Part shown: positions 45,001 through 63,061 of the stretch, piece by piece
Position numbering within the stretch: the first letter of the stretch is position 1
Layout: each line of letters begins with the position of its first letter
NCBI GenBank assembly: GCA_037783545.1
Contig: JBBELK010001000.1
Location: 682,001-746,000 of the forward strand
Reading direction: 5' to 3'
Source: Henricia sp. BOLD:AAB3569
Taxonomy: Eukaryota > Echinodermata > Asteroidea > Spinulosida > Echinasteridae
Length of the DNA: 64,000 nt
The notes under the pieces: generated by a model
Database searches by the model: none
Told to the model about the DNA's origin: nothing
Seen by the model: only the letters and a program-made list of their open reading frames with translations
Position numbers and translations under genes: made by a program

Positions 45001-47859
45001 GCGTCAGGTTTTGCCAGAGTCGGTCACAAATGTCATCTTCATTTTGAGAACAAAAAATTACAACAATAAATGAGCAACAAGTATTGGTTTGAAATTTTGA
45101 AATAAGGGAATTATTGAGTGGCTCCATACAATGTAAATGTATGCAATTTTGCCCATACATGATGCGGTAAATGCACTACATGTATACTAAGTGCTTGTCC
45201 TGCAACAACACCGAAAACACAAACCATGCTCGGGTGGCACTCGAACCCATGACCTCCTGCACACTAGGCAGACAACTTAATCACTCGACTATCAAGCATG
45301 ACCTAAGCACAAGAACAAAACCCTTTTCCTGTCTCTTACCTAATGTCAGTTCCAGACGTAATAAGATTGACGTCGCTAGGCTGTAGGTCTGGTAACCATT
45401 TCTCTAGCTCCTCAATCCATGGATAACGCATTGAGGATGGTACCACGATGAGCAGGGGCCACTCTGATTTGTAGTAGTAGGCAACGCTTATGGCTTGAAT
45501 GGTCTTGCCGAGTCCCATCTGAAAATAGCCAATAGGCAAAGAGAAACGAAAAAGAGAAATCAGACGCATTTATGGTTCTTTAAGTTGAAAGGAGATATTT
45601 GTCTTACAATTTCTTACAATTCATTAAAGGAGCTTGTCCAGATTTTTTCCCAGAAAATGGATTATGTTCTAACCTCCCCAAAATACTATCCATGAGAAGA
45701 AAGCAGCACATTTTCAAACGACAGCTGCACACCCGGTGATTTTGTCTGTTAGATGTGCACAGTCTGTAAATGAATTTAAATCATCACTGAAAACTTATCT
45801 TTTTAGATGTAATTAGCTGTTAGGTTTAATAACAAAAATTTTTATTGGGTAATGTGTGAAATTTGTGTACAGCGCCTTGAGATGTCTATGGACATATAAT
45901 GCGCTATATAAGCACCGTTTTATTATTATTATTATTATTATTATATTGATGTTTGACGGCTTAAAAATACGGCAAACAGTGCCATTTTAAATAAAAAGTA
46001 GTGCATCAGGACAACCTGACTGTTGACAAGAATTACTAAAGAATTGTAAGGGATGGCCAAGATTGAATAGGATATGCAAAACCTGAGCGCCGAAACTTGA
46101 AAAAGTTTTGCTGCATTTTGCTCTTAAGAAAACCTGAAGGAGTATACCACTGTGCCTAATAGCTCAGCTGGTAGAGCATCTGCCTGATGTCAGAGGTCTT
46201 GGGGAAAACCTGAAGGGGTTAACCACTGTGCCTTATAACTCAGCTGGTAGAGCATCTGCCTGGTGTCAGAGGTCTTGGGGAAAACCTGAAGGGGTAAACC
46301 ACTGTGCCTTATAACTCAGCTGGTAGAGCATCTGCCTGGTGTCAGAGGTCTTGGGGAAAACCTGAAGGGGGAAAGCTGAAGGGGTAAACCACTGTGCCTC
46401 ATAACTCAGCTGGTAGAGCATCTGCCTGACGTGTCAGAGGTCTTGGGGGAACCCGAGGGAGTATACTACTGTGCCTCATAGCTCAACTGGTAGAGCATCT
46501 GCTCAGTGAGTCAGAGGTCTCAATTTTAAACCCCAGCGACAAACCCAGTGATTTTGTTCCTCTCGACCCATATTCTGTTTAATTCCAATATTGTTTGTTT
46601 CAAAACATACCTCATCTCCAAACAGGCATCTGTGGTGTAGAAGAAAAATAAGAGAAAACAAAATAAAAATATTAAGTCATACTTATAGTCAACATTTGGA
46701 ACAAAAAGTGGGATTATTTTAGCTGCAAGTTTTGCATTTCTTTACCGAATCCAAATTTGTCTTATGATTATCAGTTCACCTCTGTGGGCCAACTTGATGT
46801 TAGAAACCAAAAATAATTGGAAAGGATTCATCTTTTCTTGTCTGTCCCATAGGTTTTATGCTGATATTCTCAGACAGTCATCAGATACTGTACATGTACA
46901 TAATTCTTTCCGCAATGATCAACTTCTAAAATTGCACCAACATAAGACTTAAACTATTTCAGTTATATTGTCCGTGGTTCTCAGCAAATTCTCAACGAAT
47001 TTTTAAAGCATTTACTTTATTTTAACGGAAAAAACCCATCATACTTTGTATTTTAGACATCAGCAACCGTGTGCCTTATCTAAACTTGCCCAAGTCTGAC
47101 TTTCCATGTTTGGTCTGTAATGCACAGCATACAGCGCGCCCTCTGGACTAGTGGCCTGTCTAATCTCTTCTGTCTCAGAAAGAAGAAAATAGATTAGACA
47201 GGTCACTAGTCCAGAGGGCGTGCTGTATGCTGTGCATTACAGACCAAACATGGGAAGTGAGACTTGGGCAAGTCTACGGCTTACCGCGAGTTGAATTATT
47301 GGCGGACTGCCAATAATTCAAACTATTGACAGTAATTGTTCAATAACTAAACATTAGTAAAATTTTTTCGTTGATGTCTCATTTGAAAGCGAATAGAAAG
47401 CTATCAATTCAAGAATTTTTTTTTTTCAAGGTGCCACACCCACAACACACAATACATCTTTAAATCTTTAGAGACCATAGCGGCCACAAGCGGCCTGAAG
47501 CCTAATGCCCATAGCAGCCGGAAGCCCCACCGTTTTTAATTCTGTGTAGTTCAGGTATTCAGCTTTTTAGGAACGAATATTCAAGCTCTCTTGTACTTGT
47601 ACGGATGTGAAGATTTTCCCATTCTTAAGGAGTGATATCCCATTTTTTTGGCATGATTCTGGACGTACAGCCGAGTACACGTGGAAAGGCATGGTCTATT
47701 CCCCAAATTCAAATTCCCCAAATGTACAGTTATAACAGAGAAAAACGGACAGACCCACCTTCCATTTTTCTGTACAGCATACAGGATTCCCTCTTTTTGG
47801 AATGGCAACAGGCATTCCCGAAGATTTCTTGGCAAACATTCAAGCTTGGGATCTGTCAT
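17881..47859 (-). CDS. ZRANB3: ZRANB3-like annealing helicase/endonuclease, whole gene (21 coding exons, 1345 aa)
   Basis: SNF2-family translocase that in vertebrates binds polyubiquitinated PCNA, remodels stalled forks and cuts branched DNA. Exons, each named by its higher coordinate first: 47859-47759, 46629-46611, 45518-45340, 43383-43152, 41831-41713, 40097-40025, 39384-39313, 38772-38629, 37557-37372, 35946-35875, 34627-34448, 33089-32934, 30877-29399, 27678-27548, 26775-26649, 26052-25896, 25450-25368, 25252-25118, 23226-23120, 20977-20872, 18060-17881. All are GT-AG, phases agree, and 4038 nt close on TGA. Domains: helicase core with DEMGLGKT (39-46), DESH (137-140), LLTGTPAL (165-172), EDRAHRIGQ (425-433); DIRTFF PIP-like motif (516-521); two RanBP2-type fingers (735-754, 897-918); Cys pairs and HNH (1291-1316); C-terminal DIRSFF. 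Longer than human (1079 aa), mostly in the linker. Start ATG has an in-frame TAA 39 nt upstream. Confidence 0.95.
18268..18412. mobile_element. ~150-bp palindromic MITE, copy 2
   Basis: TAGAGCCTTTGCACCAGCGG ... GGCCATCCATGCAAAGTATT with interior ATAGATCCACAAAG, matching 10374-10527. In ZRANB3 intron 20. Confidence 0.75.
18513..18700. mobile_element. MITE with GGGCGTGTTTGTTTC ends
   Basis: GGGCGTGTTTGTTTCGGACG at left; GTGAAACAAACACGCCC at right. The right edge is followed by a short tandem TTAGATGGGACACAAACA. A partial copy is at 35139-35290. Confidence 0.75.
18999..19935. mobile_element. Cluster of three GGGCGACA-family MITEs
   Basis: Copies at about 18999-19260, 19308-19610 and 19625-19932 in alternating orientation, each with AGGGCGAC ends and the GAAATTTCGG interior. 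Short host sequence (AGAACTCTGGATGC, its inverse before) separates them, suggesting nested or tandem capture. Confidence 0.8.
20284..20765. mobile_element. Nested palindromes in ZRANB3 intron 20
   Basis: Inner palindrome 20305-20531 (GGTAGTACAAG.CGCGCAGGC / GCCTGCGCAACTTATAGTACC) sits within outer ends CTCTGAAAAAAGGTAG and CTACCTTTTTCCAGAG. Confidence 0.75.
20872..20977 (-). CDS. ZRANB3: ZRANB3 exon 20
   Basis: Residues 1251-1286: [36 protein letters not shown]. Matches DAPKSQRK and QLNEMIRNP of human. Acceptor ggtccattcag, donor gtaaaa, phase 0. Confidence 0.93.
21070..21283. mobile_element. ~210-bp TIR MITE
   Basis: GTCCAAAGTTGTCAACATTT at left; AAATGTCGACAACTTTGGAC at right, continued by CACAGTTCTACA/TGTAGAACTGTG. 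Just upstream of exon 20 in the - direction (intron 19). Confidence 0.85.
22110..22840 (-). mobile_element. tRNA-derived SINE, split by a MITE
   Basis: Read on the minus strand: head GGTACTATGGCCGAGCGGTT, B-box-like GGTTGCGGGTTCAATA, GTACCTGTGCCCTTA, then ATTCTTCGGAAGAG, TGTGTTGTGTAATACACT and GAGTGAGGGGATTCTCCGGT. The intact order is seen at 49944-50205. Interrupted at 22234-22707. Confidence 0.75.
22234..22707. mobile_element. hAT-like MITE with CAGGGATGCCAGT ends, copy 1
   Basis: Left CAGGGATGCCAGT, right ACTGGCATCCCTG, inserted in the SINE. Interior has ACGTACGTACGTAC and GGCCGTTTATTTTTCCG. Copy 2 at 36751-37254 is flanked by CCAAAAT on both sides, a 7-bp direct repeat. Confidence 0.82.
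23120..23226 (-). CDS. ZRANB3: ZRANB3 exon 19 (HNH N-half)
   Basis: Residues 1216-1250 plus two bases of Lys1251: [43 protein letters not shown] (C1236, C1239) opens the HNH domain. Acceptor atgtttgaag is weak in pyrimidines, and one residue more than human lies between the Cys cluster and EHG, so this 5' edge is less sure. Donor gtatgt, phase 2. Confidence 0.87.
23430..24235. mobile_element. Element with ~90-bp TIRs, nested SINE
   Basis: GTGGCCAGACCAGCTGGGGA, TGCTCGCCCA, CGATGAGAG and GCTGATTGGTTGAACG at left recur inverted at 24140-24230. A SINE fragment (about 23690-23845, minus; GGTGTTATGGCCGAGCGGTC head) lies inside. No transposase seen. Confidence 0.7.
24488..24950. mobile_element. ~460-bp palindromic element in ZRANB3 intron 18
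   Basis: CGGAAAGTCAAGTTTGAC mirrors GTCAAACTTGACTTTCCG; the whole arms match, including GGAAAGCCCCGTTATTCCTC and AAGTGAAATGTCACAAAAT. It forms a long hairpin in the pre-mRNA. Confidence 0.88.
25118..25252 (-). CDS. ZRANB3: ZRANB3 exon 18 (first Cys cluster before HNH)
   Basis: Residues 1171-1215. [15 protein letters not shown] has C1180-x2-C1183, and [15 protein letters not shown] has C1206-x3-C1210: a zinc-binding cluster conserved with human (PLCLRCQQ, RFCSLKC). Acceptor ctgtttcag, donor gtaagt, phase 0. Confidence 0.93.
25368..25450 (-). CDS. ZRANB3: ZRANB3 exon 17
   Basis: Residues 1143-1170: a short linker, [20 protein letters not shown], ending LKRGTFVQ. Poorly conserved, but frame and both splice sites (acceptor ttgtattag, donor gtaaat) join exons 16 and 18 exactly. 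Confidence 0.82.
25744..25813 (+). repeat. tRNA-like sequence, probably a pseudogene/tRNA-derived repeat
   Basis: 70 nt: acceptor GCCTTAT/ATAAGGC pairs perfectly, D arm AGCTTAGCTGGTAGAGC, T arm TCGGG-TTTGAAT-CCCGA. The anticodon arm has only 4 pairs and a 6-nt loop, so a working tRNA is unlikely. Related units at 28380-28449 (-) and 46150-46520. Confidence 0.6.
25896..26052 (-). CDS. ZRANB3: ZRANB3 exon 16
   Basis: Residues 1091-1142 plus one base of Gly1143. [25 protein letters not shown] aligns with the VGGHVRLITK block of human; the rest is low-complexity ([17 protein letters not shown]). Acceptor aacgccccag, donor gtgagg, phase 1. Confidence 0.88.
26191..26266 (+). repeat. tRNA-like sequence, second family
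   Basis: GATCGAGTGGTTAAGAGGTC D arm, CTGC-CTTGTTT-GCAG anticodon arm, GTGGGTTCGAATCCTGC T arm with intact B box. The acceptor stem pairs poorly. A relative is at 45228-45297 (-). Confidence 0.5.
26649..26775 (-). CDS. ZRANB3: ZRANB3 exon 15
   Basis: Residues 1048-1090: [43 protein letters not shown]. Parallels human SLTAMKQRIIRKSGQLF and RYITK. Acceptor tcctctcag, donor gtaata, phase 0. Confidence 0.93.
27548..27678 (-). CDS. ZRANB3: ZRANB3 exon 14
   Basis: Residues 1005-1047 plus two bases of Ser1048: [43 protein letters not shown]. The RFLREW block matches RFVREW of human ZRANB3, within its substrate-recognition region. Acceptor ccacctgacag, donor gttaga, phase 2. Confidence 0.93.
27735..28248 (-). 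mobile_element. TTAA-MITE family B, inverted copy
   Basis: Reads on the minus strand as the copy at 28628; ends TTTAAAGGCGCAGTG and GGGCCTTTAAAG. Opposite orientation to 28628-29140, 400 bp away in the same intron. Confidence 0.85.
28380..28449 (-). repeat. tRNA-like sequence (minus)
   Basis: Minus strand starts GCCTTATAGTTTAGCAGC and ends AAATCCCGATGAGGC: same family as 25744-25813, with a one-pair change in the acceptor stem. Probably a tRNA-derived repeat. Confidence 0.55.
28628..29140 (+). mobile_element. TTAA-MITE family B, full copy
   Basis: CTTAAAGGCCCTGTAGATGA at left, ACTGGGCCTTTAAAAG at right; TTAA at both edges. Interior GACATCAACAAACTCATCCG and GCGTGTGCGCGCGATCC. Confidence 0.87.
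29399..30877 (-). CDS. ZRANB3: ZRANB3 exon 13, a 1479-nt exon with PIP-like motif and two zinc fingers
   Basis: Residues 512-1004 in one open exon. Begins [12 protein letters not shown], the site of the human PIP box (QHDIRSFF), but Ser513/514-region residues replace the key Gln. Then a Ser/Lys/Glu-rich, probably disordered linker. Finger 1: W735, C737-x2-C740-x10-C751-x2-C754, with the Thr-Phe pair after the second Cys that binds ubiquitin in NZF fingers. Finger 2: W897, C899-x4-C904-x10-C915-x2-C918, with Gly-Tyr instead of Thr-Phe. Ends with [20 protein letters not shown], conserved with human. Human ZRANB3 has one such finger. Acceptor gcttcaacag, donor gtgagt, phase 0. Open frames on the other strand here are shadows. 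Confidence 0.94.
30963..31543 (+). mobile_element. TTAA-MITE family C, copy 1
   Basis: CTTAAAGGGCCCCTTATTTA to GTCACAGGCCCTTTAAAG. The same ~570 bp recurs at 63428-64000. An open frame in both copies is shared simply because the DNA is nearly identical. Confidence 0.88.
31690..32276. mobile_element. ~590-bp palindromic element in ZRANB3 intron 12
   Basis: TTCTTGGGTTTCAC, GGTTGCTATCCGCCATTACT and CATACTATGGCACGCCAAAG at left recur inverted at 32190-32275; a further inner copy of the same motif is near 31945-32015. Confidence 0.85.
32340..32905. mobile_element. Two abutting TTAA-type MITEs
   Basis: 32340-32535 (GCATCCAAATTGGAGATTGT-like; relatives at 45626-45700, 50460-50610, 63290-63430) joins at TTTAAA with 32531-32900, whose relative is 41003-41347 (CCCATTGTATCATTTGCAAT ... 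GGGCCTTTAA). Confidence 0.7.
32934..33089 (-). CDS. ZRANB3: ZRANB3 exon 12
   Basis: Residues 460-511, from [20 protein letters not shown] through [14 protein letters not shown] to YFGNK. This is the end of the helicase domain and the lead-in to the PCNA-binding motif. Acceptor ttcgtcgcag, donor gtttgt, phase 0. Confidence 0.93.
33165..33435. mobile_element. GGGCGACA-family MITE, diverged copy
   Basis: CAATAGGGTGACACTTTTTG, TTAGGGCGACA and CTAAATTTCGGTGGTC; ends degraded. A closer relative of 39505-39825 (same CCAAT.GGG.GACACTTTTTGCG start). Confidence 0.7.
33890..34348 (+). mobile_element. GGGTAATTCC-family MITE, copy 2
   Basis: CTAATTCCCAAAATTAGGGG to CCCCTAATTTTAGGAATTAC. In ZRANB3 intron 11, about 100 bp from exon 11. 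Confidence 0.85.
34448..34627 (-). CDS. ZRANB3: ZRANB3 exon 11 (motif VI)
   Basis: Residues 400-459: [63 protein letters not shown] (425-433) carries the arginine fingers of motif VI. Acceptor gcatccctcag, donor gtagga, phase 0. Confidence 0.96.
35392..35744 (-). mobile_element. GGGTAATTCC-family MITE, inverted and one end lost
   Basis: Starts inside the family (ATGCCACTCAAATTTAATG) and ends TTTTGGGAATTACCC. Opposite orientation to 33890-34348, with exon 11 between them. Confidence 0.83.
35875..35946 (-). CDS. ZRANB3: ZRANB3 exon 10
   Basis: Residues 376-399: [24 protein letters not shown]. Matches VNQFQ-D-DTRVA-LSI-AAG of ZRANB3/SMARCAL1. Acceptor ccgatgcag, donor gtgagt, phase 0. Confidence 0.95.
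36215..36350 (-). mobile_element. SINE fragment (tRNA-like head)
   Basis: Minus strand GGTACTGTGGCCGAGTGGTT ... GCGGGTTCGATACCCGG ... CCTTGAGCAAGGCACTTAAC. Same family as 49944-50205. Confidence 0.75.
36751..37254. mobile_element. hAT-like MITE with CAGGGATGCCAGT ends, copy 2
   Basis: Ends and interior match 22234-22707; CCAAAAT on each side. Confidence 0.83.
37372..37557 (-). CDS. ZRANB3: ZRANB3 exon 9 (second RecA lobe start)
   Basis: Residues 314-375: [34 protein letters not shown] and [23 protein letters not shown] is motif IV and RIDG motif V-like region of the family. Acceptor ttattgtcag, donor gtaaaa, phase 0. Confidence 0.95.
38629..38772 (-). CDS. ZRANB3: ZRANB3 exon 8
   Basis: Residues 266-313. 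[20 protein letters not shown] begins it and [17 protein letters not shown] ends it; this variable insert of the helicase core keeps the human pattern of helix plus Y-LTG-AK. Donor gtgaaa, phase 0. Confidence 0.92.
38788..39233 (+). mobile_element. GGGTAATTCC-family MITE, copy 3
   Basis: GGTAATTCCCCAAATTAGGG to CCCCTAATTTTGGAAATTAC, between ZRANB3 exons 8 and 7 (intron 7); begins 16 bp beyond the exon 8 edge, so it contributes to that acceptor's upstream sequence. Confidence 0.85.
39313..39384 (-). CDS. ZRANB3: ZRANB3 exon 7
   Basis: Residues 242-265: [24 protein letters not shown] split over the conserved L-QLPPK motif of SNF2 lobes. Acceptor ctttcaaaag, donor gttggt; both boundaries are in phase 0. 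Confidence 0.93.
39505..39825. mobile_element. GGGCGACA-family MITE, diverged copy
   Basis: TATCCAATGGGTCGACACTT... GTGTCGTCCCTTTGCAGC; interior GCTGAAATTTCGGTGGT. Followed by an ATT microsatellite at 39826-39845. Confidence 0.7.
40025..40097 (-). CDS. ZRANB3: ZRANB3 exon 6
   Basis: Residues 217-241: [20 protein letters not shown] then REKEQ, the segment before the second RecA lobe (MIRR is conserved in SNF2 proteins). Acceptor tcattttcag, donor gttgga, phase 0. Confidence 0.93.
40656..41398. mobile_element. TIR element with nested TTAA-MITE
   Basis: GGTGTGTTCCCATTGGACTT at left; AATGTCCAAAGGGAACACCA at right. The interior repeats GTTCCCA/TTTGCC and GTTCCCACTGGACT. The MITE at 41003-41347 sits inside. 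Confidence 0.7.
41713..41831 (-). CDS. ZRANB3: ZRANB3 exon 5
   Basis: Residues 178-216 plus two bases of Ser217: [39 protein letters not shown]. The acceptor ccttcggctag is chosen because it restores LFTQ, matching LFMQ in the human protein; a second in-frame AG lies 12 nt downstream (acacag). Donor gtaagt, phase 2. Confidence 0.88.
42560..42958. mobile_element. ~400-bp palindromic element in ZRANB3 intron 4
   Basis: CAATTCCGGAAATTCAAATT at left against AAATTTGAGTTTCTGGAATTG at right; arms near-identical through CAAGTTGTTTGATTTTAAAC and ending with CGGTTTCGGATGTACT. Confidence 0.88.
43152..43383 (-). CDS. ZRANB3: ZRANB3 exon 4 (DESH box, motif III)
   Basis: Residues 100-177. Contains [27 protein letters not shown] (Walker B DESH 137-140) and [16 protein letters not shown]. 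Acceptor ttcctaacag, donor gtattg, phase 0. Confidence 0.96.
43506..44015 (+). mobile_element. TTAA-MITE family B, full copy
   Basis: AAGGCCCTGTAGATGATCTG to CACTGGGCCTTTAA; same length and orientation as 28628-29140. The left TTAA is lost. Confidence 0.83.
44030..44460. mobile_element. Relative of the MITE nested in 9601-10360
   Basis: TTCTCACTAGAGAAATC, GTTAATCATCGTTAGTTAAT and CAGGCCTGCCA are shared with 9749-10173; no outer GGGTGTCCC element surrounds it, so the inner element moves on its own. Confidence 0.75.
45228..45297 (-). repeat. tRNA-like sequence (minus)
   Basis: Minus strand GCTTGATAGTCGAGTGATTA ... GTGCAGGAGGTCATGGGTTCGA (B box) ... CCCGAGC. Same family as 26191-26266; 40 bp upstream of the exon 3 donor region. 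Confidence 0.5.
45340..45518 (-). CDS. ZRANB3: ZRANB3 exon 3 (Walker A, motif Ia)
   Basis: Residues 41-99 plus two bases of Arg100. [20 protein letters not shown], then [20 protein letters not shown] and [16 protein letters not shown]-binding lysine K45 and motif Ia. Acceptor ctattttcag, donor gtaaga, phase 2. Confidence 0.96.
45690..45945 (+). mobile_element. Non-LTR retroelement 3' end
   Basis: Codes the same C-terminus as fragment B ([16 protein letters not shown]-like) then the 3' UTR GCGCCTTGAGATGTCTATGG, GCGCTATATAAGCACCG and (TTA)n. Severely 5'-truncated. Confidence 0.82.
46150..46520 (+). repeat. Tandem array of five tRNA-like units
   Basis: Units of about 76-88 bp beginning ACTGTGCC, then A-box-like TAACTCAGCTGGTAGAGCAT, TGCCTGGTGTCAGAGGTCTT and the spacer GGGGAAAACCTGAAGGGG. 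The first four lack a B box; only the last runs into different sequence. In ZRANB3 intron 2, ending 90 bp from the microexon. Confidence 0.8.
46611..46629 (-). CDS. ZRANB3: ZRANB3 exon 2, a 19-nt microexon
   Basis: Acceptor tacaccacag and donor gtatgt bound 19 nt that finish Arg34 and code CLFGDE (35-40). This supplies the ADE part of the usual LVADEMGLGKT motif I (here LFGDEMGLGKT). Skipping it would lose the motif and shift the frame (19 is not a multiple of 3), so it is needed. Confidence 0.85.
47085..47278. mobile_element. ~190-bp palindromic MITE
   Basis: ACTTGCCCAAGTCTGACTTT, TTTGGTCTGTAATGCACAGC and CTCTGGACTAGTGG mirror their complements at 47195-47278. Confidence 0.87.
47759..47859 (-). 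CDS. ZRANB3: ZRANB3 exon 1
   Basis: Residues 1-33 plus two bases of Arg34. [20 protein letters not shown] is followed by [14 protein letters not shown], matching the Q-motif region just before the helicase Walker A. ATG at 47859 has A at -3. The N-terminal extension of the human protein (about 20 aa) is absent. Donor gtgggt, phase 2. Confidence 0.9.
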
Positions 47860-48554: not shown

Positions 48555-48938
48555 TATTCATGCCAACAATGTACATCATAAACAAGATGGGCATAGGAGC
48601 GACAAAAGCAATAAAAATCACTGTGGTCGAGGACCTGTCTCTCCCACATCAAGTTAAGAAAAAAAGATAAATAAATAAATGTAAATACATGTATATAGAT
48701 CCTATGGTAAATATAAAAAATATACAAAAGTAAAACAAATAGACAGAAATATAAATTGCACAGTTTAAGAATACTAATTACATTTACCTGATGTGACACT
48801 TGATACAAAAGCAACATAGGCCTACCTTGAAATAACATAGTAAAGGAAAAACGAGATGATGGCATGTAGAACTATTGACAATGGCACTGGAGGCAACTGT
48901 TGCAAGAACTTAAGTTGAAAAAAAAGCGACTAAATCAG

Positions 48939-49070
48939 TCCGGGAAAACTCCGAATAAGGAAACGTTTCCGAATAAGGAAACCTTGAGTTTCCGAATAAG
49001 GAAACGTTTCCGAATAAGGAAACCTTAGAGTTTCCGTATTCGGAAACTCTTGCGTTTAAGTCCCAAAAGG
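48939..49070 (-). repeat. Short repeats of CCGAATAAGGAAAC
   Basis: Five nearly identical blocks of GTTTCCGAATAAGGAAAC, each itself an imperfect palindrome, preceded by AGTCCGGGAAAACT. The same module occurs inverted at 52055-52130. Confidence 0.8.
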
Positions 49071-49509
49071 GAATCGAAAAAGGCAAGTTTGGAATAGTGA
49101 AAACTATACAAATGTGTTCAACAGTTCCTTACCCAAGTTTCTATCTGTGCAATTCAAAAACCTATCTGTGCGTTTTCTTGTAAATGGCTTTTGAAAATCA
49201 ACATTCCACACTTCTCAAGGACTGCAAATAGCGACTCCATCTTGACTACCCTCGATCAGTGTTAGTAATTTTGTGCAAATATTTTTTATAAATAATATTT
49301 TGAAATGACACTGGGATAATTATAAAATAAATTAGATAATAAAATATATGTTATTAGTTTTTTAATTGGATAGAAAAATGAGCACTATATGAATATTTTA
49401 AAAAGTATTATTTTATAAGTAGTGACGTGGCTACCAATTGCGCGAAATACTTAGAAACGCGGGAACTTCGAATCGTCATTTTAGAGGAAGCACAATTATT
49501 ATGAATTCT

Positions 49510-49818
49510 AGGATAGGGCGACATTTTGTGTGTAAAAAAGCTATATTAGGGCGACCTGCTCAATAGGGCGACATTTTGGTGTCGCCCTAATATTTTTGAG
49601 TTTAAAAATCATTTTTTAAGGTCAAAAACCATTTTTTTTAGGTCGAGAACCATTTTTATTGGGACTGGAGCTGTTTCTCTTTGGTCTGGAAGCATTTTTG
49701 GAAGCTTTGGGTAAAAAAAATAAGGTGTCATTTTGAGTGACTCTTGCCGAAATTTCGGTGGTCCCCGGGGAGAGTCTTCCCGAAATGTCGCCCTATTGCA
49801 GCATTCAGAGTTTTTACA
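49510..49818. mobile_element. GGGCGACA-family MITE
   Basis: CTAGGATAGGGCGACATTTT to AAATGTCGCCCTATTGCAGC; closest to 13930-14235 and 19625-19932. Followed by an ATT microsatellite. Confidence 0.82.
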
Positions 49819-49943
49819 AACATTATTATTATTATTATTATTTCTTTCTGGTATTCATACCAAGGATTCCTCAATAGTGCTCATTGCACTGTCACTCGCA
49901 AGCGTGAGGAAACCCATGAAGAATTCTAATTAGAATTAGAAAT

Positions 49944-50205
49944 GGCCAGAGACACCGGGGATGATCCCCCTTGCTCTTTACGAAAGAATGCTCTGGGATC
50001 TTTAGAGTGCGTTTTTCATTCAACCTAATACACTGGACCAACGGCTTCACATCCCTTCCGAAGGATGGAGCAAGTGTGGTTAAGTGCCTTGCTCAAGGGC
50101 ACAGGTACCATAGCCGTAGGGAGGTTCGAACCTGCAACCCCAAGTTTTCACCTATGATTGCGAGTCAATGACCTAAACCGCTCGGCCACGGTACCCCACA
50201 TGTCA
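49944..50205 (-). mobile_element. Intact tRNA-derived SINE
   Basis: Minus strand, in order: GGTACCGTGGCCGAGCGGTT head, GGTTCGAACCTCC B box, CCTTGAGCAAGGCACTTAAC, CATCCTTCGGAAGGGATGTG, AAAGATCCCAGAGCATTC, GAGCAAGGGGGATCATCCCC. Reference copy for those at 22110, 23690 and 36215. Confidence 0.8.
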
Positions 50206-50209
50206 AATA

Positions 50210-52050
50210 GACTCGATATGCTGAAAGAAGCTGAGAAAGAGAGAAAAAAAAGGCGCAGACACAAGAAAAGCATGAATATCACGACGCCTATAGTAATTGT
50301 TGGACTTGCTATCACATGGGATAATGCGCTATGAATGGGCAAGTACGAGGACCCTCAAGAGCTAGCTGCCCAAAAAAGTACATGTCATGTATGATTGTGT
50401 GCATGTTCATGTACACATCATGTCTTGTAAACTGATTTATCTGGTTCCATATTAAAGGCAGTGCAGAAACTAAACCAACATTTTTGCATCCGTATCCAAA
50501 TTGGAGATTGTAAATTTACCGTTTTCTATTCGTTGTAGAGTTTTGGGGAGACATGTTAACATGGTTGTTTGGTTAAAACGAAATACATTTTTCTGAGCGC
50601 TCCTTTAAGTAAAGCCCAATTTACACGATCATACTTTTGTTCAAGAACTCCATTCAACATTTGTATGACGATGTTCACACTTAAACTTTAGAAGGCCCAG
50701 AGATTGTTCATGAATGTTTTGTGGATTTTCTGGCGACCTACAATACCATGTCATGATGTGAGCCAATTCTATAGGGCCTAATCTGGTTGGTTTTAATAAT
50801 AGAGCTCCATTAACATGTTCTCGAACATCGTCCAACATGTTCAACCTTGTTCAAGCTTGTTCGCAGATGTTTAAATTCCCATATACATGATAGAACAATT
50901 TCCCCCGAACATCATCATACTAGTTGGAAGATGTTCTTAAAGTTAAAAGGTTGAAAGATAATGAACAGAAAGAAATCTTGTGATCTGGATGAAGGGGCTA
51001 TATATAGGGTCTTTTAAGTTTTAGTTTTACAGTAATACCTCCCAATCAATCGGTGTAAAGTGTTGTTTTAAATAATTATAACTGCAGTTGAAAGTTGATA
51101 ATTTATTTCTTTTCTTTTTCCGACATGTTTAAGAGGCTTAATTAACAATCAAAGTGAACAGTATAGTACAATAATTGTGTTTCACTTGTTTCAATTGTAG
51201 GTGCTGAAAAATAAAAGAAATACGAACCCACTCCGACAGAAAAAAACACCAATTACACCACTTTACCATGTTTACATTGCAGTTGTTATTAAATGTTTCT
51301 ACATGTATGTTCTGCATTACTAGTTTACAAACAAGGAGACAGGCTAAATTAAAAAGTAATACAATATTAAATGTATAATCACGCCTTTAAAAGAGCTGTA
51401 TAGTGATATTTAATCAGAAAACAGTATGAAATAAAAGTTATTTTAAATATAAAATAAACAATTCATGTTTTTCTTTTACATTTTTAAAATGCCTGGAAAT
51501 ATTTTTTTCTAAAATGTATTAATGTACCTTTAAATTGTTCCTCCAACGTGTGCTGCTCCACCCCTTAGATGGGGATTTGGTCACGTTTTTCATGCCCCAG
51601 GGTGGAGAGTTTGGCCCACTAAAGTAATCATGTCTGTGCCTCCATCATGATCTAAGACTATAGCTAGAAGCGCATTTTACACCCGTGGGTGCATGGGGAT
51701 TTTTTTCACCTAACTTTTGCCCCAGGGGTGGGGTTTTTGTCACGTGAAAAGTGACAATCGCCTCTTCTTTGGGGTAGCCCGGAAATCCTGGGTGAAACAA
51801 GTGATTAAGGTGCATAACAATCACTAAAGCCGCCTCACCCTCCCCTGCACGTAAACCACACCCCTAAACCCCCATATCCCAAACCCTCCAACCCAACCCC
51901 ACCCCACCCCATGCACACCACGAACCCCAGGACACTGCCACTTGACCCATCATCAAACTTACCACTGGGCATGGCAACACAACTCCCAAACAAACTCTAA
52001 TCGGTAAGTTTCAGGATGTTTCTTTGTGCAATATCGCCATATGCACATTT
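50210..52050. other. No gene recognised
   Basis: Contains a TTAA-type MITE piece (about 50455-50610), AT-rich sequence, repeated TGTTC/GAACA words near 50810-50930, and a C/A-rich strand at 51835-51925 (CCCAACCCCACCCCACCCC). No exon-like open frame with a known domain. Confidence 0.5.
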
Positions 52051-52054
52051 ACAC

Positions 52055-52130
52055 CGGAAGTTTCCTTATTCGGAAACGTTTCCTTATTCGGAAACGTTTC
52101 CTTATTCGGAGTTTTCCCGGACTGAAATGT
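52055..52130 (+). repeat. Inverted counterpart of 48939-49070
   Basis: GTTTCCTTATTCGGAAAC repeated about three times, then GAGTTTTCCCGGACT, the exact complement of AGTCCGGGAAAACTC at 48939. The following 60 bp (AACATTTGCGACAAAAGTGC) also resemble the minus strand of 48195-48235. Confidence 0.8.
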
Positions 52131-52200
52131 AGAAAAGGAGAAAATGTGATTTTTCTACAGAAAAGCAACATTTGCGACAAAAGTGCAAGTGGGAAGTTAC

Positions 52201-52749
52201 TACCCCTAGAACTATGGGGGACTGTATCCCCCATAGGTTATGTTGTTTTTTTCCAATATGGCGGCGCCTGAACTTTAAGATCGGACCGATACGGTTTAAG
52301 CTAGCGCAATAATCCGCTCCCCAATCGCCACCAAACTCCGTCTGATAGTTCTTGAGACACTCACCTTGCGTGTGTCTACGGAATTTCGGTACCATTTGTC
52401 CATTAAATTCTCCGAAAATAATGTTGGAAAATGAACGGGAACATGTGCGATGCATGTGGATGCATGATCGAGGCATTCGGTGCGATGCATGTGGATGCAT
52501 CGCACATGTTCCCGTTCATTTTCCAACATTATTTTCGGAGAATTTAATGGACAAATGGTACCGAAATTCCGTAGACACACGCAAGGTGAGTGTCTCAAGA
52601 ACTATCAGACGGAGTTTGGTGGCGATTGGGGAGCGGATTATTGCGCTAGCTTAAACCGTATCGGTCCGATCTTAAAGTTCAGGCGCCGCCATATTGGAAA
52701 AAAACAACATAACCTATGGGGGATACAGTCCCCCATAGTTCTAGGGGTA
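52201..52749. mobile_element. ~550-bp near-perfect palindrome
   Basis: Arms 52201 to about 52455 and about 52495-52749 are almost identical in opposite orientation about 52475, with a short centre containing ATGCATGTGGATGCAT twice. GGAAGTTACTA stands on both sides (52192-52202 and 52750-52760). Open frames seen here on each strand are mirror images, not genes. Confidence 0.92.
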
Positions 52750-54093
52750 GGAAGTTACTACAGTTGTTTGGCCAGTTCCGAACCGGGTTTCATATCGTCG
52801 TTGATTGCGATCTGGAGGAGACTATTCTGAAAAAAACTCTGACCCTACGAAGTGCAGCAACTTTCGCTGATTTTAAGCATACCGACATTTGGTGCAAAGC
52901 CGCTCGTAAATTGGGTGAATTTGCCAACGGAACATCGGAAGTCAGTTGGCTACTTTCGAACCGATTTGCTAGTTCCGAATAGGGCGCCCTCTCTGCCCAG
53001 ACTACATGGAGATTTTTTCGCCCAACTTCATAGATAGGCCTACTACTAGATGTGAGCAAAAGCTGCACTATGAAGTGCTTAAAATGGGGGAAAAGAGGGC
53101 ACCACCTACACCTGAAAACTTACTTTCACCTACTTTTAAAAATCAAAAGCAGGTGAAAATGGACATTTTATCTGCTTGAAAGCACAATTTTTCACTTTAA
53201 TTCATCATTGTTGGATTAATTTGTTTGAAAACCAATTTTGTTTCCCCGAGGTCCAGCTCCAGAATTAAGCCTTGTCTTGTTCCGAGTGATACATGTAGCC
53301 TAGTACAAAACAGAATACTTGCAGGGTTTTAAAGAACTGTTTAACGAAAAACAAACAAAAAGTGTTATTGCAAATGTAAGAGATGTTTAAGCATCTTAGC
53401 AAGTTTTAATACCAAACATTTGACAAAGCCCTCCCATCCAATCTGTTAATAAAAAAGAGCACCATTTTTATACAACAAACACGAAACAATGTATATATGT
53501 TTGTCTTGTTTTCATTCATAAAATGTTACTTTTATTAGATAACCCCGTAGATAACGCACTTGTTAAATTACCAAGCATCAATCAACAACAACAAATTGTA
53601 TACATTATATAGTGGATTTTCATGTTATTTATATTTATATATAAATATTATATTTTGGATGAAATATTATAACCTGAAATATTATGTAAGATGTTCATAA
53701 TTGACTGATCATCATGGAAAATATAATTGTGCATATTTGTTATGAAAAAGTGGGATCCCTTAAATTCAACAATAAATAGAGAAGGCATATATGTAGACCA
53801 TATCGAATAGCCGCATGGCAACTTTTGCTATTTACATTGCTTTATGTAAGCACAAATTGTACTAACCATGCATGTGTTCTCAAGGGGAAAAATTGCCAGC
53901 CTACATCATGGTGGCAGCTATTTCATATGGTCTGTACATGTTTACAGACATGTAGATCCCTTTGTATATTTGCAATCACAAGGATGGGTGTAAAACGCGG
54001 AACGACGGAATGACGGAACGACTAAAAAATGGGTGTTACAACAGATATTGTCCCCCGGCCCCATATACCGATATACACAATAAGCACTGTTCA

Positions 54094-57000
54094 TACGTCT
54101 GCATAGAATTAAATGTTTTCGTATCAAGAACGCTTTGTTCCAGGATAACCTTTCCGGTTTTGTATTCTACAGTCCTCGGACTATCTGTACATCATCTGAA
54201 AATTCTGGAACAACCCGTCCCAAGGGGCCTAAAACGGCCATTCCTTAACGGTTATTCTCAATGCACGCAATTAGTGCGGTATAACTGCATTTTATTAGCC
54301 TACATTTTACGTCTGCATAGAATTAAATGTTTTCGTATCAAGAACGCTTTGTTCCAGGATAACCTTTCCGGTTTTGTATTCTACAGTCCTCGGACTATCT
54401 GTACATCATCTGAAAATTCTGGAACAACCCGTCCCAAGGGGCCTAAAACGGCCATTCCTTAACGGTTATTCTCAATGCACGCAATTAGTGCGGTAACTGC
54501 ATTTTATTAGCCTACATTTTACGTCTGCATAGAATTAAATGTTTTCGTATCAAGAACGCTTTGTTCCAGGATAACCTTTCCGGTTTTGTATTCCACAGTC
54601 CTCGGACTATCTGTACATCATCTGAAAATTCTGGAACAACCCGTCCCAAGGGGCCTGAAACGGCCATTCCTTAACGGTCATTCTCAATGCACGCAATTAG
54701 CGGTAACTGCATTTTATTAGCCTACATTTTACGTCTGCATAGAATTAAATGTTTTCGTATCAAGAACGCTTTGTTCCAGGATAACCTTTCCGGTTTTGTA
54801 TTCTACAGTCCTCGGACTATCTGTACATCATCTGAAAATTCTGGAACAACCCGTCCCAAGGGGCCTAAAACGGCCATTCCTTAACGGTTATTCTCAATGC
54901 ACGCAATTAGTGCGGTATAACTGCATTTTATTAGCCTACATTTTACGTCTGCATAGAATTAAATGTTTTCGTATCAAGAACGCTTTGTTCCAGGATAACC
55001 TTTCCGGTTTTGTATTCTACAGTCCTCGGACTATCTGTACATCATCTGAAAATTCTGGAACAACCCGTCCCAAGGGGCCTAAAACGGCCATTCCTTAACG
55101 GTTATTCTCAATGCACGCAATTAGTGCGGTAACTGCATTTTATTAGCCTACATTTTACGTCTGCATAGAATTAAATGTTTTCGTATCAAGAACGCTTTGT
55201 TCCAGGATAACCTTTCCGGTTTTGTATTCCACAGTCCTCGGACTATCTGTACATCATCTGAAAATTCTGGAACAACCCGTCCCAAGGGGCCTGAAACGGC
55301 CATTCCTTAACGGTCATTCTCAATGCACGCAATTAGCGGTAACTGCATTTTATTAGCCTACATTTTACGTCTGCATAGAATTAAATGTTTTCGTATCAAG
55401 AACGCTTTGTTCCAGGATAACTTTTACTGTTTTGTTTTCCACAGTCCTCGGACCATCTTTACATCATCAGGAAATTCTGGAACAACCTGTCCCAAGGGGC
55501 CAAAAACGGCAATTCCATAACGGTCATTCTCAATGCACGCAATTAGTGCGGTATATAGGTCTACATTTTACGTCTTCATAGGAATTCATTTTTTCGTATC
55601 AAGAACGCTTTGTTCCAGGATAACCTTTACGGTTTTGTATTCCACAGTCCTCGGACTATCTTTACGTCATCAGGAAATTATGGAACAACCCGTCCCAAGG
55701 GTCCTAAAATGGCCATTCCGTAACGGTAATTCTCACTGCACGCAATCAGTGCGGTAACTGCATTATATAGGCCTACATTTTACGTCTGCATAGACATTCA
55801 TTTTTCTGTATCAAGAACGCTTTGTTCCAGGATAACTTTTACTGTTTTGTTTTCCACAGTCCTCGGACTATCTTTATATCATCGGGAAATTCTGGAACAA
55901 CCCGTCCCACCAAGGGGCCAAAAACGGCCATTCCATAACGGTCATTCTCAATGCACGCAATTAGTGCGGTATATAGGTCTACATTTTACGTCTTCATAGG
56001 AATTCATTTTTTCGTATCAAGAACGCTTTGTTCCAGGATAACCTTTACGGTTTTGTATTCCACAGTCCTCGGACTATCTTTACGTCATCAGGAAATTATG
56101 GAACAACCCGTCCCAAGGGTCCTAAAATGGCCATTCCGTAACGGTAATTCTCATTGCACGCAATCAGTGCGGTAACTGCATTATAGGCCTACATTTTACG
56201 TCTGCACAGACATTCATTTTTCTGTATCAAGAACGCTTTGTTCCAGGATAACTTTTACTGTTTTGTTTTCCACAGTCCTCGGACTATCTTTATATCATCG
56301 GGAAATTCTGGAACAACCCGTCCCAAGGGGCCAAAAACGGCCATTCCATAACGGTTATTCTCAATGCACGCAATTAGTGCGGTATAACTGCATTTTATTA
56401 GCCTACATTTTACGTCTGCATAGAATTAAATGTTTTCGTATCAAGAACGCTTTGTTCCAGGATAACCTTTCCGGTTTTGTATTCTACAGTCCTCGGACTA
56501 TCTGTACATCATCTGAAAATTCTGGAACAACCCGTCCCAAGGGGCCTAAAACGGCCATTCCTTAACGGTTATTCTCAATGCACGCAATTAGTGCGGTAAC
56601 TGCATTTTATTAGCCTACATTTTACGTCTGCATAGAATTAAATGTTTTCGTATCAAGAACGCTTTGTTCCAGGATAACCTTTCCGGTTTTGTATTCCACA
56701 GTCCTCGGACTATCTGTACATCATCTGAAAATTCTGGAACAACCCGTCCCAAGGGGCCTGAAACGGCCATTCCTTAACGGTCATTCTCAATGCACGCAAT
56801 TAGCGGTAACTGCATTTTATTAGCCTACATTTTACGTCTGCATAGAATTAAATGTTTTCGTATCAAGAACGCTTTGTTCCAGGATAACTTTTACTGTTTT
56901 GTTTTCCACAGTCCTCGGACCATCTTTACATCATCAGGAAATTCTGGAACAACCTGTCCCAAGGGGCCAAAAACGGCAATTCCATAACGGTCATTCTCAA

Positions 57001-57417
57001 TGCACGCAATTAGTGCGGTATATAGGTCTACATTTTACGTCTTCATAGGAATTCATTTTTTCGTATCAAGAACGCTTTGTTCCAGGATAACCTTTACGGT
57101 TTTGTATTCCACAGTCCTCGGACTATCTTTACGTCATCAGGAAATTATGGAACAACCCGTCCCAAGGGTCCTAAAATGGCCATTCCGTAACAGTAATTCT
57201 CACTGCACGCAATCAGTGCGGTAACTGCATTATATAGGCCTACATTTTACGTCTGCATAGACATTCATTTTTCTGTATCAAGAACGCTTTGTTCCAGGAT
57301 AACTTTTACTGTTTTGTATTCCACAGTCCTCGGACTATCTTTACATCATCGAGAAATTCTGGAACAATCCGTCCCAAGGGGCCTAAAACGGCCATTCCAT
57401 AACGGTCATTCTCAATG
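54094..57417 (+). repeat. Left arm: 16 tandem ~210-bp units
   Basis: Units begin TACGTCTGCATAGAA at 54094, 54308, 54520, 54730, 54944, 55156, 55366, 55569, 55781, 55987, 56197, 56411, 56623, 56833, 57036, 57248. Each holds AAGAACGCTTTGTTCCAGGA, CAGTCCTCGGACTATC and GGAACAACCCGTCCCAAGG. The 214-212-210 length series occurs three times. Confidence 0.95.
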
Positions 57418-57419
57418 CT

Positions 57420-58240
57420 CGTGGAATAGATTGTCGTTGGATGACCTCGAACATTGTTAAACTCCCCATCACTCTCCACTTCTAGTGGTTGTCTGGATAC
57501 ATTGAATGATTATAGAAAAACCATAGATCACGTTACTTTATTAATTATAAAAGCTAAACGTGAATATTTTGATCATGTGTCAGCTAAGTACAAGCCTAGT
57601 ATACAGTAAGAATCCTAAAAAGTTATGGCATGAGGTTCACAAAGTCACGGGAAATAATAAATTTATTAACAGTACGTATCCAGATCTTGTTCTGAAATGA
57701 ATGATTTTTTGTACTTGCATTGGTAAAAAAAAAAAATAGCTCACTCATTTAAAAAGGCTTCTTCAATTTGCAAGAATCCTGAGTGTATTTATACTCTTCG
57801 TTTTGACCCTATCCCTGAGGAGTCTATATTGAAGTCCTTACGTCATCCGAGTGCAGATAGTAATCTTGATGTTTGGGACTTTGATACTAGACTCCTCAGG
57901 CTATAGGTGCATAATTTACAGATCACTCTGCTACATTTTTAATCGGTCTCTTATAAGAGTGGATTTATTCCAGATGATTGGAGATTTGCCCGACTCCGAT
58001 TTACAAGGGAAAGGTTGTAAAAAGGATAAAGGTAATTACAGACCAATCTCTGTTGTTTGTCATGTTGCTAAAATTAAGTTTAGGTTCAACTTCTGGATTA
58101 TCTTAATACCCATGATATATGTTTACAGCTGATCAATTTGCATTTCTTAAAAAATTAACCACTCTACAAAGTCATGTTTACATTGAGTTATTGATGACTT
58201 TTATAATGCCTTTAATGAACATAAAGCTATTTTCTGTTTT
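57420..58240 (+). pseudogene. Decayed reverse transcriptase in the foldback core
   Basis: Frames interrupted by stops and shifts show KAKREYFDHVSAKY, NPKKLWHEVHKVTG, then KKDKGNYRPISVVCHVAKI and ADQFAFLK: linker and finger/palm motifs of a non-LTR retrotransposon RT. No complete domain survives, so it cannot mobilise the element. Confidence 0.8.
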
Positions 58241-58242
58241 CT

Positions 58243-60260
58243 TGACAGGTTGTTCCAGAATTTCCTGATGATGCAAAGATAGTCCGAGGACTGTGGAATA
58301 CAAAACCGTAAAAGTTATCCTGGAACAAAGCGTTCTTGAAATGGAACATTGAATTTCTATGAAGACGTAAAATGTAGACCTATATACCGCACTATTTCGT
58401 GCATTGAGAATGACCGTTATGGAATGGCCGTTTTTGGCCCCTTGGGACGGGTTGTTCCAGAATTTCCCGATGATATAAAGATAGTCCGAGGACTGTGGAA
58501 TACAAAACTGTATAGGTTATCCTGGAACAAAGCGTTCTTGATACAGAAAAATTAATTTCTATGCAGACGTAAAATGTAGGCCCATAATGCAGTTACCGCA
58601 TAAATTGCGTGCAATGAGAATGACCGTTACGGAATGGCCGTTTTTGGCCCCTTGGGACGGGTTGTTCCATAATTTCCTGATGACGTAAAGATAGTCCGAG
58701 GACTGTGGAATACAAAACCGTAAAGGTTATCCTGGAACAAAGCGTTCTTGATATAGAAAAATCAATTTCTATATATGCAGACGTAAAATGTAGGCCTATA
58801 ATGCAGTTACCGCACTAATTGCGTGCAATGAGAATGACTGTTACGGAATGGCCATTTTAGGACCCTTGGGACGGGTTGTTCCAGAATTTCCCGATGACGT
58901 AAAGATAGTCCGAGGACTGTGGAATACAAAACCGTAAAAGTTATCCTGGAACAAAGCGTTCTTGAACCGGAACATTGAATTTCTATGAAGACGTAAAATG
59001 TAGACCTTATATACCGCACTAATTGCGTGCATTGACTCGAGAATGATCGTTATGAAATGGCCGTTTTTGGCCCCTTGGGACGGGTTGTTCCAGAATTTCC
59101 CGATGATATAAAAATAGTCCGAGGACTGTGGAATACAAAACTGTAAAGGTTATCCTGGAACAAAGCGTTCTTGATACAGAAAAATGAATTTCTATGCAGA
59201 CGTAAAATGTAGGCCTTTGCAGTTACCGCACTAATTGCGTGCAATAAGAATGACCGTTACGGAATGGCCGTTTTTGGCCCCTTGGGACGGGTTGTTCCAG
59301 AATTTCCTGATGATGTAAAGATAGTCCGAGGACTGTGGAATACAAAACCGTAAAAGTTATCCTGGAACAAAGCGTTCTTGATACGGAAAATTGAATTTCT
59401 ATGAAGACGTAAAATGTAGGCCTACCGGTATATAATGCAGTTACCGCACTAATTGCGTGAATTACCGTTACGGAATGGCCATTTTAGGACCCATGGGACG
59501 GGTTGTTCCAGCATTTCCCGATGATATAAAGATAGTCCGAGGACTGTGGAAAACAAAACAGTAAAAGTTATCCTGGAACAAAGCGTTCTTGATACAGAAA
59601 AATGAATTTCTATGCAGACGTAAAATGTAGGCCTATATAATGCAGTTACCGCACTAATTGCGTGCAATGAGAATTACCGTTACGGAATGGCCATTTTAGG
59701 ACCCTTGGGACGGGTTGTTCCAGAATTTACCGATGATATAAAGATAGTCCGAGGACTGTGGAATACAAAACAGTAAAAGTTATCCTGGAACAAAGCGTTC
59801 TTGATACAGAAAAATGAATTTCTATGCAGACGTAAAATGTAGGCCTATATAATGCAGTTACCGCACTAATTGCGTGCAATGAGAATTACCGTTACGGAAT
59901 GGCCATTTTAGGACCCTTGGGACGGATTGTTCCAGCATTTCCCGATGATATAAAGATAGTCCGAGGACTGTGGAAAACAAAACAGTAAAAGTTATCCTGG
60001 AACAAAGCGTTCTTGATACAGAAAAATGAATGTCTATGCAGACGTAAAATGTAGGCCTATAATGCAGTTACCGCACTAATTGCGTGCAATGAGAATTACC
60101 GTTACGGAATGGCCATTTTAGGACCCTTGGGACGGGTTGTTCCATAATTTCCCGATGATATAAAGATAGTCCGAGGACTGTGGAAAACAAAACAGTAAAA
60201 GTTATCCTGGAACAAAGCGTTGTTGATACGAAAAAATGAATTTCTATACAGACGTATATC
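58243..60260 (-). repeat. Right arm: ~10 inverted ~210-bp units
   Basis: ACGTAAAATGTAG marks at 58365, 58567, 58781, 58991, 59200, 59407, 59618, 59830, 60042, and the edge unit at 60252. Same unit as the left arm read on the minus strand; more variation between units than in the left arm. Confidence 0.93.
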
Positions 60261-60685
60261 ATTATGTATGAACAGTGCAAATTGTGTATATCGATGTATG
60301 GGGGACAATATCTGTTGTAACACCCAGTTTTTAGTCGTTCCGTCATTCCGTCGTTCCGCGTTTTACACGGGTCCAATCACAAGGTTTTGAAATTATTTCA
60401 GTGAGCTTTCCTTTCATAAAGTGGATTGTTGTCATTTTGCTTCAAAATTTGAATCACACCCAAACAAATTTCTTCCTAGTTGTGTCCTACTGCCTACAGT
60501 CAGACAGTGGTTTGCGATGTCCATGATTGGAAAATGATTCAAAAAAAAGACTTACAGAACCGTTTTTGAAGCCAAAATTTCCTCTTGCGTTACTTGAATC
60601 CGGACGAGGATTTTCTTCGTAACTGTAAATTCTGGGCGCTAGAGGGCGCTGTTACGAATTAGTGGCTTTGGCTGTGGCTATGCTG

Positions 60686-60946
60686 TTGCCATTAGCCTTT
60701 TAGAAGTATGGCGGAACAAAAGGAGAGGGCGCAATTTCATTTGGGTATGAATTTTTTTATCAATTGTATTTCTTTCTAAAAACTTGATTTACATGTTGTA
60801 ATTATAATACATAGACAGAATTATAAATAAAATTAATAAGTGTAAAGTGAAAAACTGAGTTATTTTGCATTTTAGTCGATTTTATACCCACTGCAAAGTG
60901 CGCCCTCCTATTGTGTCCGCCATACTTCAAAAAGGCTAATGGCATA
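60686..60946. mobile_element. ~260-bp TIR MITE
   Basis: TGCCATTAGCCTTTTAGAAG, TATGGCGGAACAAAAGGAGA at left; GTGTCCGCCATACTTCAAAA, AGGCTAATGGCA at right. Confidence 0.82.
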
Positions 60947-63007: not shown

Positions 63008-63021
63008 AGGGGGGGGGGGGT

Positions 63022-63057
<36 letters not shown>

Positions 63058-63061
63058 GGGG
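63008..63061 (+). repeat. Poly-G run of about 50 bases
   Basis: Almost uninterrupted G with three T's, followed by GTGCATCTGCTC. Could form G-quadruplexes; could also contain assembly error in its length. Confidence 0.85.

Follow-up and report, generated by a model that had tools for sequence, protein, structure and literature searches.

Foldback transposons with repeat-built arms are familiar from FB of Drosophila and TU of the sea urchin, which share the architecture of the family described here and differ from it in unit length and sequence. Closer in description is Tetris of Drosophila virilis (PMC4079207, where the foldbacks of D. melanogaster and sea urchin are also mentioned), a foldback reported to carry tandem units of ~220 bp in long inverted ends and a unique outer domain; its unit number varies, also between alleles, its target-site duplications measure 8-10 bp, its account gives no coding copy, and unit arrays also lie outside the element. 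Tm1, a Mutator/Foldback element of root-knot nematodes (PMC3169594), is described with 9-bp duplications, variable tandem repeats in the arms, short motifs (7-bp in Tm1) that stand outside the inverted repeat and are unlike at the two ends, and acquired sequence in some copies. In Muta1 and Muta5 of Aedes aegypti (PMC5225508), short tandem repeats lie subterminally, next to a terminal motif; their duplications are 8-9 bp long, and non-autonomous derivatives exist. Besides, the Drosophila element Galileo (PMC3573991; PMC3688188) has long inverted ends that in subfamily F contain direct repeats of ~210 bp and are unequal to each other, and Pack-TIRs such as Ssk-FB4 (PMC8277862) are TIR transposons that hold foreign sequence and form multicopy families. 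In the traits just named, as far as these sources describe them, the family dissected below resembles each.

The locus lies in a 64,000-bp stretch of the Henricia sp. assembly GCA_037783545.1 (contig JBBELK010001000.1, positions 682,001 to 746,000; hereafter, the window), for which a first-pass annotation had proposed a mobile foldback built around a dead reverse transcriptase. The insertion spans window positions 53982-60374 (6393 bp). It opens with an L-type terminal motif, GGATGG (53982-53987, + strand), and closes with an R-type motif, GGACCC (60369-60374, - strand), both end types having been compared across 19 copies. Inward of these motifs lie the outer inverted repeats, on the left at 53988-54093 (+), where GTGTAAAACG is followed by three 8-bp CGGAAYGA repeats (53998-54021), and on the right at 60257-60368 (-), delimited by end comparison and again with three 8-bp repeats. 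The inverted ends, predicted at ~110 bp, are real: they measure ~112-118 bp, and the left 110 bp match the reverse-complemented right end at 89.6% over 106 aligned positions. Repeat-unit analysis likewise confirmed the opposed arrays, for which 16 and ~10 units of ~210 bp had been claimed, with 16 tandem units of ~212 bp in the left arm (54094-57418, +), 10 inverted ones in the right arm (58244-60256, -) and a period of 212. Between the arms sits a core of 825 bp (57419-58243, +) that is common to family copies. The 11-bp direct repeat that had been placed just outside the ends, CAATCACAAGG, is indeed present twice in the window (exact matches on the + strand at 53973 and 60374, none on the - strand), but the element's boundaries, GG at 53982 and CC at 60374 as judged from the other copies, make three of its 11 bases (GG on the left, C on the right) the element's own. 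The target-site duplication proper is therefore the 8-bp AATCACAA (left copy 53974-53981, right copy 60375-60382), an exact repeat beside the GG/CC termini.

The window's own 740.7-Mb assembly holds many relatives of this insertion. With the outer 117 bp as query, the best 40 of 50 candidates scored were mostly inverted pairs a few kilobases apart. A 23-base end pattern matched 44 times genome-wide with at most one mismatch, against 0 for the reversed control, and 55 times against 0 with at most three, the three-mismatch rows including related small elements; other loci with the same outer ends, as a mobile element should leave them, thus exist across the genome. From 23 regions fetched, 19 complete copies were dissected, including the window copy and one on contig C1087. 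Sizes range from 2.8 to 9.1 kb in 18 of them (window included, C1087 excluded). Long inverted arms of direct repeats around a middle, which define the foldback type, occur in 18 of the 19, namely as opposed arrays in the window copy, L031-L046 and L053, with small, interrupted arms in L046. The nineteenth, on C1087 (131930-151357, 19.4 kb, R/R ends, 9-bp duplication; read from the neighbouring pieces L047, L054 and L048), is old and rearranged, with many nested inverted segments and, by eye, a Tc1/mariner-like piece. Most ends share one layout, a 6-bp motif, GTGTAAAACG and two or three 8-bp repeats, and every combination of end types is present (L/L in eight copies, L/R in six, R/R in five). 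One copy, L044 on contig C131, is a 7.4-kb near-palindrome with arms 95.8% alike, two cores and a clean 9-bp duplication; at positions 3411-5612 of its locus it contains a central 2.2-kb near-palindromic insert with ends ATAAGCCTTATACG. A relic on C540/C1641 has a core 82% identical, and its C540 piece, as fetched, retains an outer-repeat remnant and, of the arms, a single unit to one side and a degraded unit to the other. Besides, the 1.06 kb fetched at C1129:62900-63960 (L071) contains two 212-bp units but neither ends nor core.

Mobility is documented by duplications and by empty sites. An exact flanking duplication of 8-10 bp accompanies the termini GG...CC in 14 of the 19 copies (9 bp in 11, 10 bp in two, 8 bp in the window copy), while none of 342 swapped flank pairs had a repeat of even 6 bp. 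The five complete copies without a duplication may be products of inter-copy recombination, or of decay. The left flank of the window copy (53400-53983) is a dispersed repeat (best 40 of 195 candidates scored, three elsewhere 100% identical), and all four copies of this host repeat that we fetched are uninterrupted and hold one CAATCACAAGG, and with it a single AATCACAA. Over the 200 bp to the left, CAATCACAAGG included, their mismatches to the window number 0, 0, 0 and 1, and to the right the adjoining 17 bp of the window's flank are matched exactly; from window position 60402 on, 17 bp right of the insertion, the host-repeat match ends, the four other copies continuing alike. Because four paralogous sites carry a single, uninterrupted CAATCACAAGG, the window insertion is demonstrated, and a chance duplication predating it is contradicted at all four. 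When the two flanks of the C1087 copy are joined, 143 of 164 positions agree with the interior of element L069, which holds a single TGAAATTTG; of the stretch compared, 33 bp precede the junction and the remainder follows it. The family has thus moved and duplicated its target as a foldback-type element should, and the mobile foldback first proposed from one locus holds for 19 dissected copies, with duplications at 14 and empty sites at hand. We are confident that the family is a non-autonomous foldback-type DNA transposon.

Several other features of the window were noted around the insertion. Just to its right, at 60689-60942, lies a MITE-like repeat of ~254 bp that has inverted ends and occurs in high copy number (best 40 of 3714 candidates scored, the top about 100% identical), and farther on a 53-base G run with 92% matches (63009-63061). 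To its left are a 277-nt palindrome, 97% complementary with a 19-nt loop (52189-52761), and a second foldback-like structure (48935-52125), whose 51-bp arms are 98% complementary and 3.1 kb apart and which has an 18-bp GTTTCCGAATAAGGAAAC unit. At 46128-46374 a 76-bp unit, tRNA-like by eye though not called by ARAGORN, is repeated in tandem about three times. As for coding sequence, an SNF2-related helicase exon (PF00176, E 9e-7) at 43113-43466 on the - strand and a zinc-finger-like frame at 29261-30961, seen by eye and with no Pfam match, perhaps belong to one gene.

The core is a single dead passenger, broken in all three forward frames. Copies with different cores had been expected; instead, all 19 share the core sequence, although three (L045, L046 and C1087) hold only part of it. 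These three partial cores are omitted from the identity table, in which 17 cores from 16 copies (L044 contributing two) are 93.8-100% identical over aligned positions; some family cores carry an insert. Read by eye, successive pieces of the core frames (FIPDDWRFAR, GNYRPISVVCHVAKI and VIDDFYNAFNEHKAIFCFLD) bear what we take to be a resemblance to LINE reverse transcriptase, and on this reading of the sequence a reverse-transcriptase origin of the core is likely. Pfam and PDB searches of core pieces returned 0 families and nothing relevant, respectively, and when the core frames were used as tblastn queries on the window and the remaining fetched loci, the matches listed comprised only family copies at useful scores. 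The dead captured reverse transcriptase of the first-pass annotation hence stands as a dead passenger with broken frames, its identity as reverse transcriptase being a by-eye reading to which Pfam added no family. All 27 genome candidates scored for the core fall in family copies, presumed alleles or the relic, and the 33 matches to a 56-aa core piece (from 35 candidates) are confined to the same kinds of locus; neither set contained a free relative or donor of the core, so that the identifiable donor expected of Pack-TIR-like sequence capture is missing from these candidates in the genome. The passenger would already have been present before the family spread.

Unit analysis of the arms covered 17 of the 19 copies (L046 and C1087 omitted) and, after units matching less than about 150 bp were dropped, retained 357 units, with 3 to 21 counted per arm. 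On clustering, the outer units of L-type arms are mostly of one type, and a few recurring types lie beside the core. Among 22 L-type arms, identity between copies is 98.3% for the outermost unit, compared with 91.6% for the fifth. An identity of at least 99% is reached by 48 of the 171 pairs of adjacent units in outer halves, versus 8 of the 152 in inner halves. Unit numbers differ even between near-identical copies: two on C340, 1.25 Mb apart, have cores that are 100% identical, with 7 and 10 units in one and 8 and 6 in the other. Judged from core and end coordinates, the presumed haplotig pairs C624/C162 and C7/C359, each with shared flanks, differ by 2168 bp in arm length and by about 818 bp in one arm, respectively, differences that may stem from collapse in assembly. 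Among the eight L/L copies, the pair of outermost units within a copy (99.0% alike) shows no greater likeness than such units from different copies (98.9%), which speaks against purely intra-element homogenisation. The notion that the unit is itself an array of terminal-motif copies was rejected, as the motif is without clear enrichment in the 212-bp unit (GGAAYGAC was observed twice, a count reached by 14 of 300 shuffles, and GGAAYGACGGAA within three mismatches was observed 0 times); this lends no support to arms serving as extra binding sites.

The arms would accordingly be passive arrays of 212-bp units, gained and lost by unequal exchange or slippage, mainly in the outer part, and the outer blocks with their 6-bp end motif could be swapped between arms and between copies. 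We tentatively suggest that these mirrored satellite arms might renew themselves from the outside in: unit duplication, together with the transfer of outer blocks and their 6-bp motif between arms or copies, might replace the old array, and a new end type could take both ends, with the core and the units beside it left in place. Were outside-in renewal true, the family would offer a natural setting in which to watch how satellites turn over within a transposon.

Two accounts that do without a transposon were weighed. Palindromic read chimeras could in principle have made opposed arrays around one core during assembly, and both the presumed haplotigs C624/C162 and C7/C359 and the 7.4-kb near-palindrome of L044 fit such an origin; yet the flanks of the copies are unlike, exact duplications frame 14 of 19, and the empty sites lie elsewhere in the same assembly. 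On the strength of the empty sites and duplications, we rejected an assembly chimera, which we consider highly improbable. The same two lines of evidence, along with the shared ends and the shared core, led us to reject satellite DNA fallen by chance into opposed blocks, an account that we find hardly credible even though unit number varies, units cluster into types, and the C1129 unit pair has neither ends nor core beside it within the 1.06 kb fetched.

As to the enzyme that moves the family, a transposase supplied from elsewhere would bind the ends at GTGTAAAACG and the 8-bp CGGAAYGA repeats, excise or copy the element and insert it at a target cut with a stagger of about 9 bp. The full, transposase-coding copy that the first-pass annotation had envisaged did not turn up near the 55 close ends or the 100 listed of 319 wider-motif ends. 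Transposase matches in the genome comprise 19 of MULE and 20 of Merlin type (PF12762), several of the latter in open frames of 340-400 codons; when the lists were compared by eye, a single match of the two types together lay less than 20 kb from a listed end (C293, 11.5 kb). This MULE gene was rejected as the coding partner, for it encodes a ZSWIM1-3-like protein, and the nearby end is part of a small element that is itself complete and flanked by a separate duplication. Such small elements (L064-L067, L069 and L070) have ends like GGACGTTGGTAAAACGCGGAACGRTGGAAC and GGACGTTGGTAAAACGCGGAACG and an inner end motif in common with the foldback; several are palindromic, and L064 has, by inspection, a 9-bp duplication. 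With at most two mismatches, the shared inner motif matches 319 times versus once in the control, the foldback family's own ends included. By eye, we recognised no transposase in the palindromic-looking cores of the larger related elements C272 and C165, nor in the L047/L048 frames, apart from the Tc1/mariner-like piece.

Our best inference is that a Mutator-like transposase acts in trans, and we regard this as probable, an assignment that rests on duplication length and on end layout compared with Tm1 and Muta1, since no coding partner was found near the listed ends. Duplications within the 8-11 bp given for Mutator-like elements (PMC6446971) occur in 14 of the 19 copies. Long inverted ends, a terminal motif and subterminal tandem repeats are all present, a combination that is not diagnostic alone. 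Merlin elements make 8-9-bp duplications, a size that fits 12 of the 19 copies, and this, together with the 20 PF12762 matches and their several open frames of 340-400 codons, would suit a Merlin (IS1016-type) superfamily transposase acting in trans. We nevertheless deem it unlikely: none of these matches lies, by eye, less than 20 kb from the ends listed (55 close ends and, for the wider motif, 100 of 319), the duplications of two copies are 10 bp long, and a terminal motif with subterminal tandem repeats fits the layout published for Mutator-like elements (PMC5225508). Rehavkus, which combines 9-bp duplications and inverted ends of 26-400 bp with a minisatellite, is recorded in the same survey that gives the Mutator range only from arthropods and annelids (PMC6446971). 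Mobilisation by a Rehavkus-type transposase, which would carry a PHD finger, or by another superfamily with 9-bp duplications and minisatellites appears quite unlikely. Small elements that share the end core are numerous, so that a single lineage of transposase may move elements of several types.

Within the literature searched, the string GGAACGACGGAATGACGGAAC had no match and no paper combining foldback, transposase and echinoderm was found, and the reading of a new family that is ordinary in kind is well supported, known systems being compared by description only. Likeness here means that two systems work alike, not that they share descent. In this sense, the architecture is closest to Tetris, the end asymmetry to Tm1, and the arm repeat length to Tetris and Galileo F. 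Tetris, as far as its account goes (PMC4079207), differs in having three structurally complete copies only and middle domains of variable composition, and its inverted ends reach up to 1.7 kb, against arrays of up to about 4.5 kb here (L034). The repeat unit reported for Tm1 is ~14 bp, compared with 212 here, its ends are mostly A1/A2 with one A2/A2 copy, as opposed to L/L, L/R and R/R in 8, 6 and 5 of 19 copies, and it has a coding (Phantom) copy (PMC3169594). Coding copies are likewise known for Muta1 and Muta5, in whose description, so far as available, long-unit arrays go unmentioned (PMC5225508). Galileo belongs to the P superfamily, its described repeats number at most three in F, and transposase binding sites are shown for its repeats and not for ours (PMC3573991; PMC3688188); the Pack-TIRs (PMC8277862) differ in that the donor of our core was not found in the window's genome. 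To these systems, the present work adds a foldback family dissected through 19 complete copies, presumed alleles, empty sites and an old relic that keeps roughly a single unit on either side, and thereby a case in which one can trace how repeat arms grow. Arrays that oppose each other over several kilobases would be expected to foster rearrangement. The family also links transposon arms with satellite DNA, as has been proposed for Tetris (PMC4079207).
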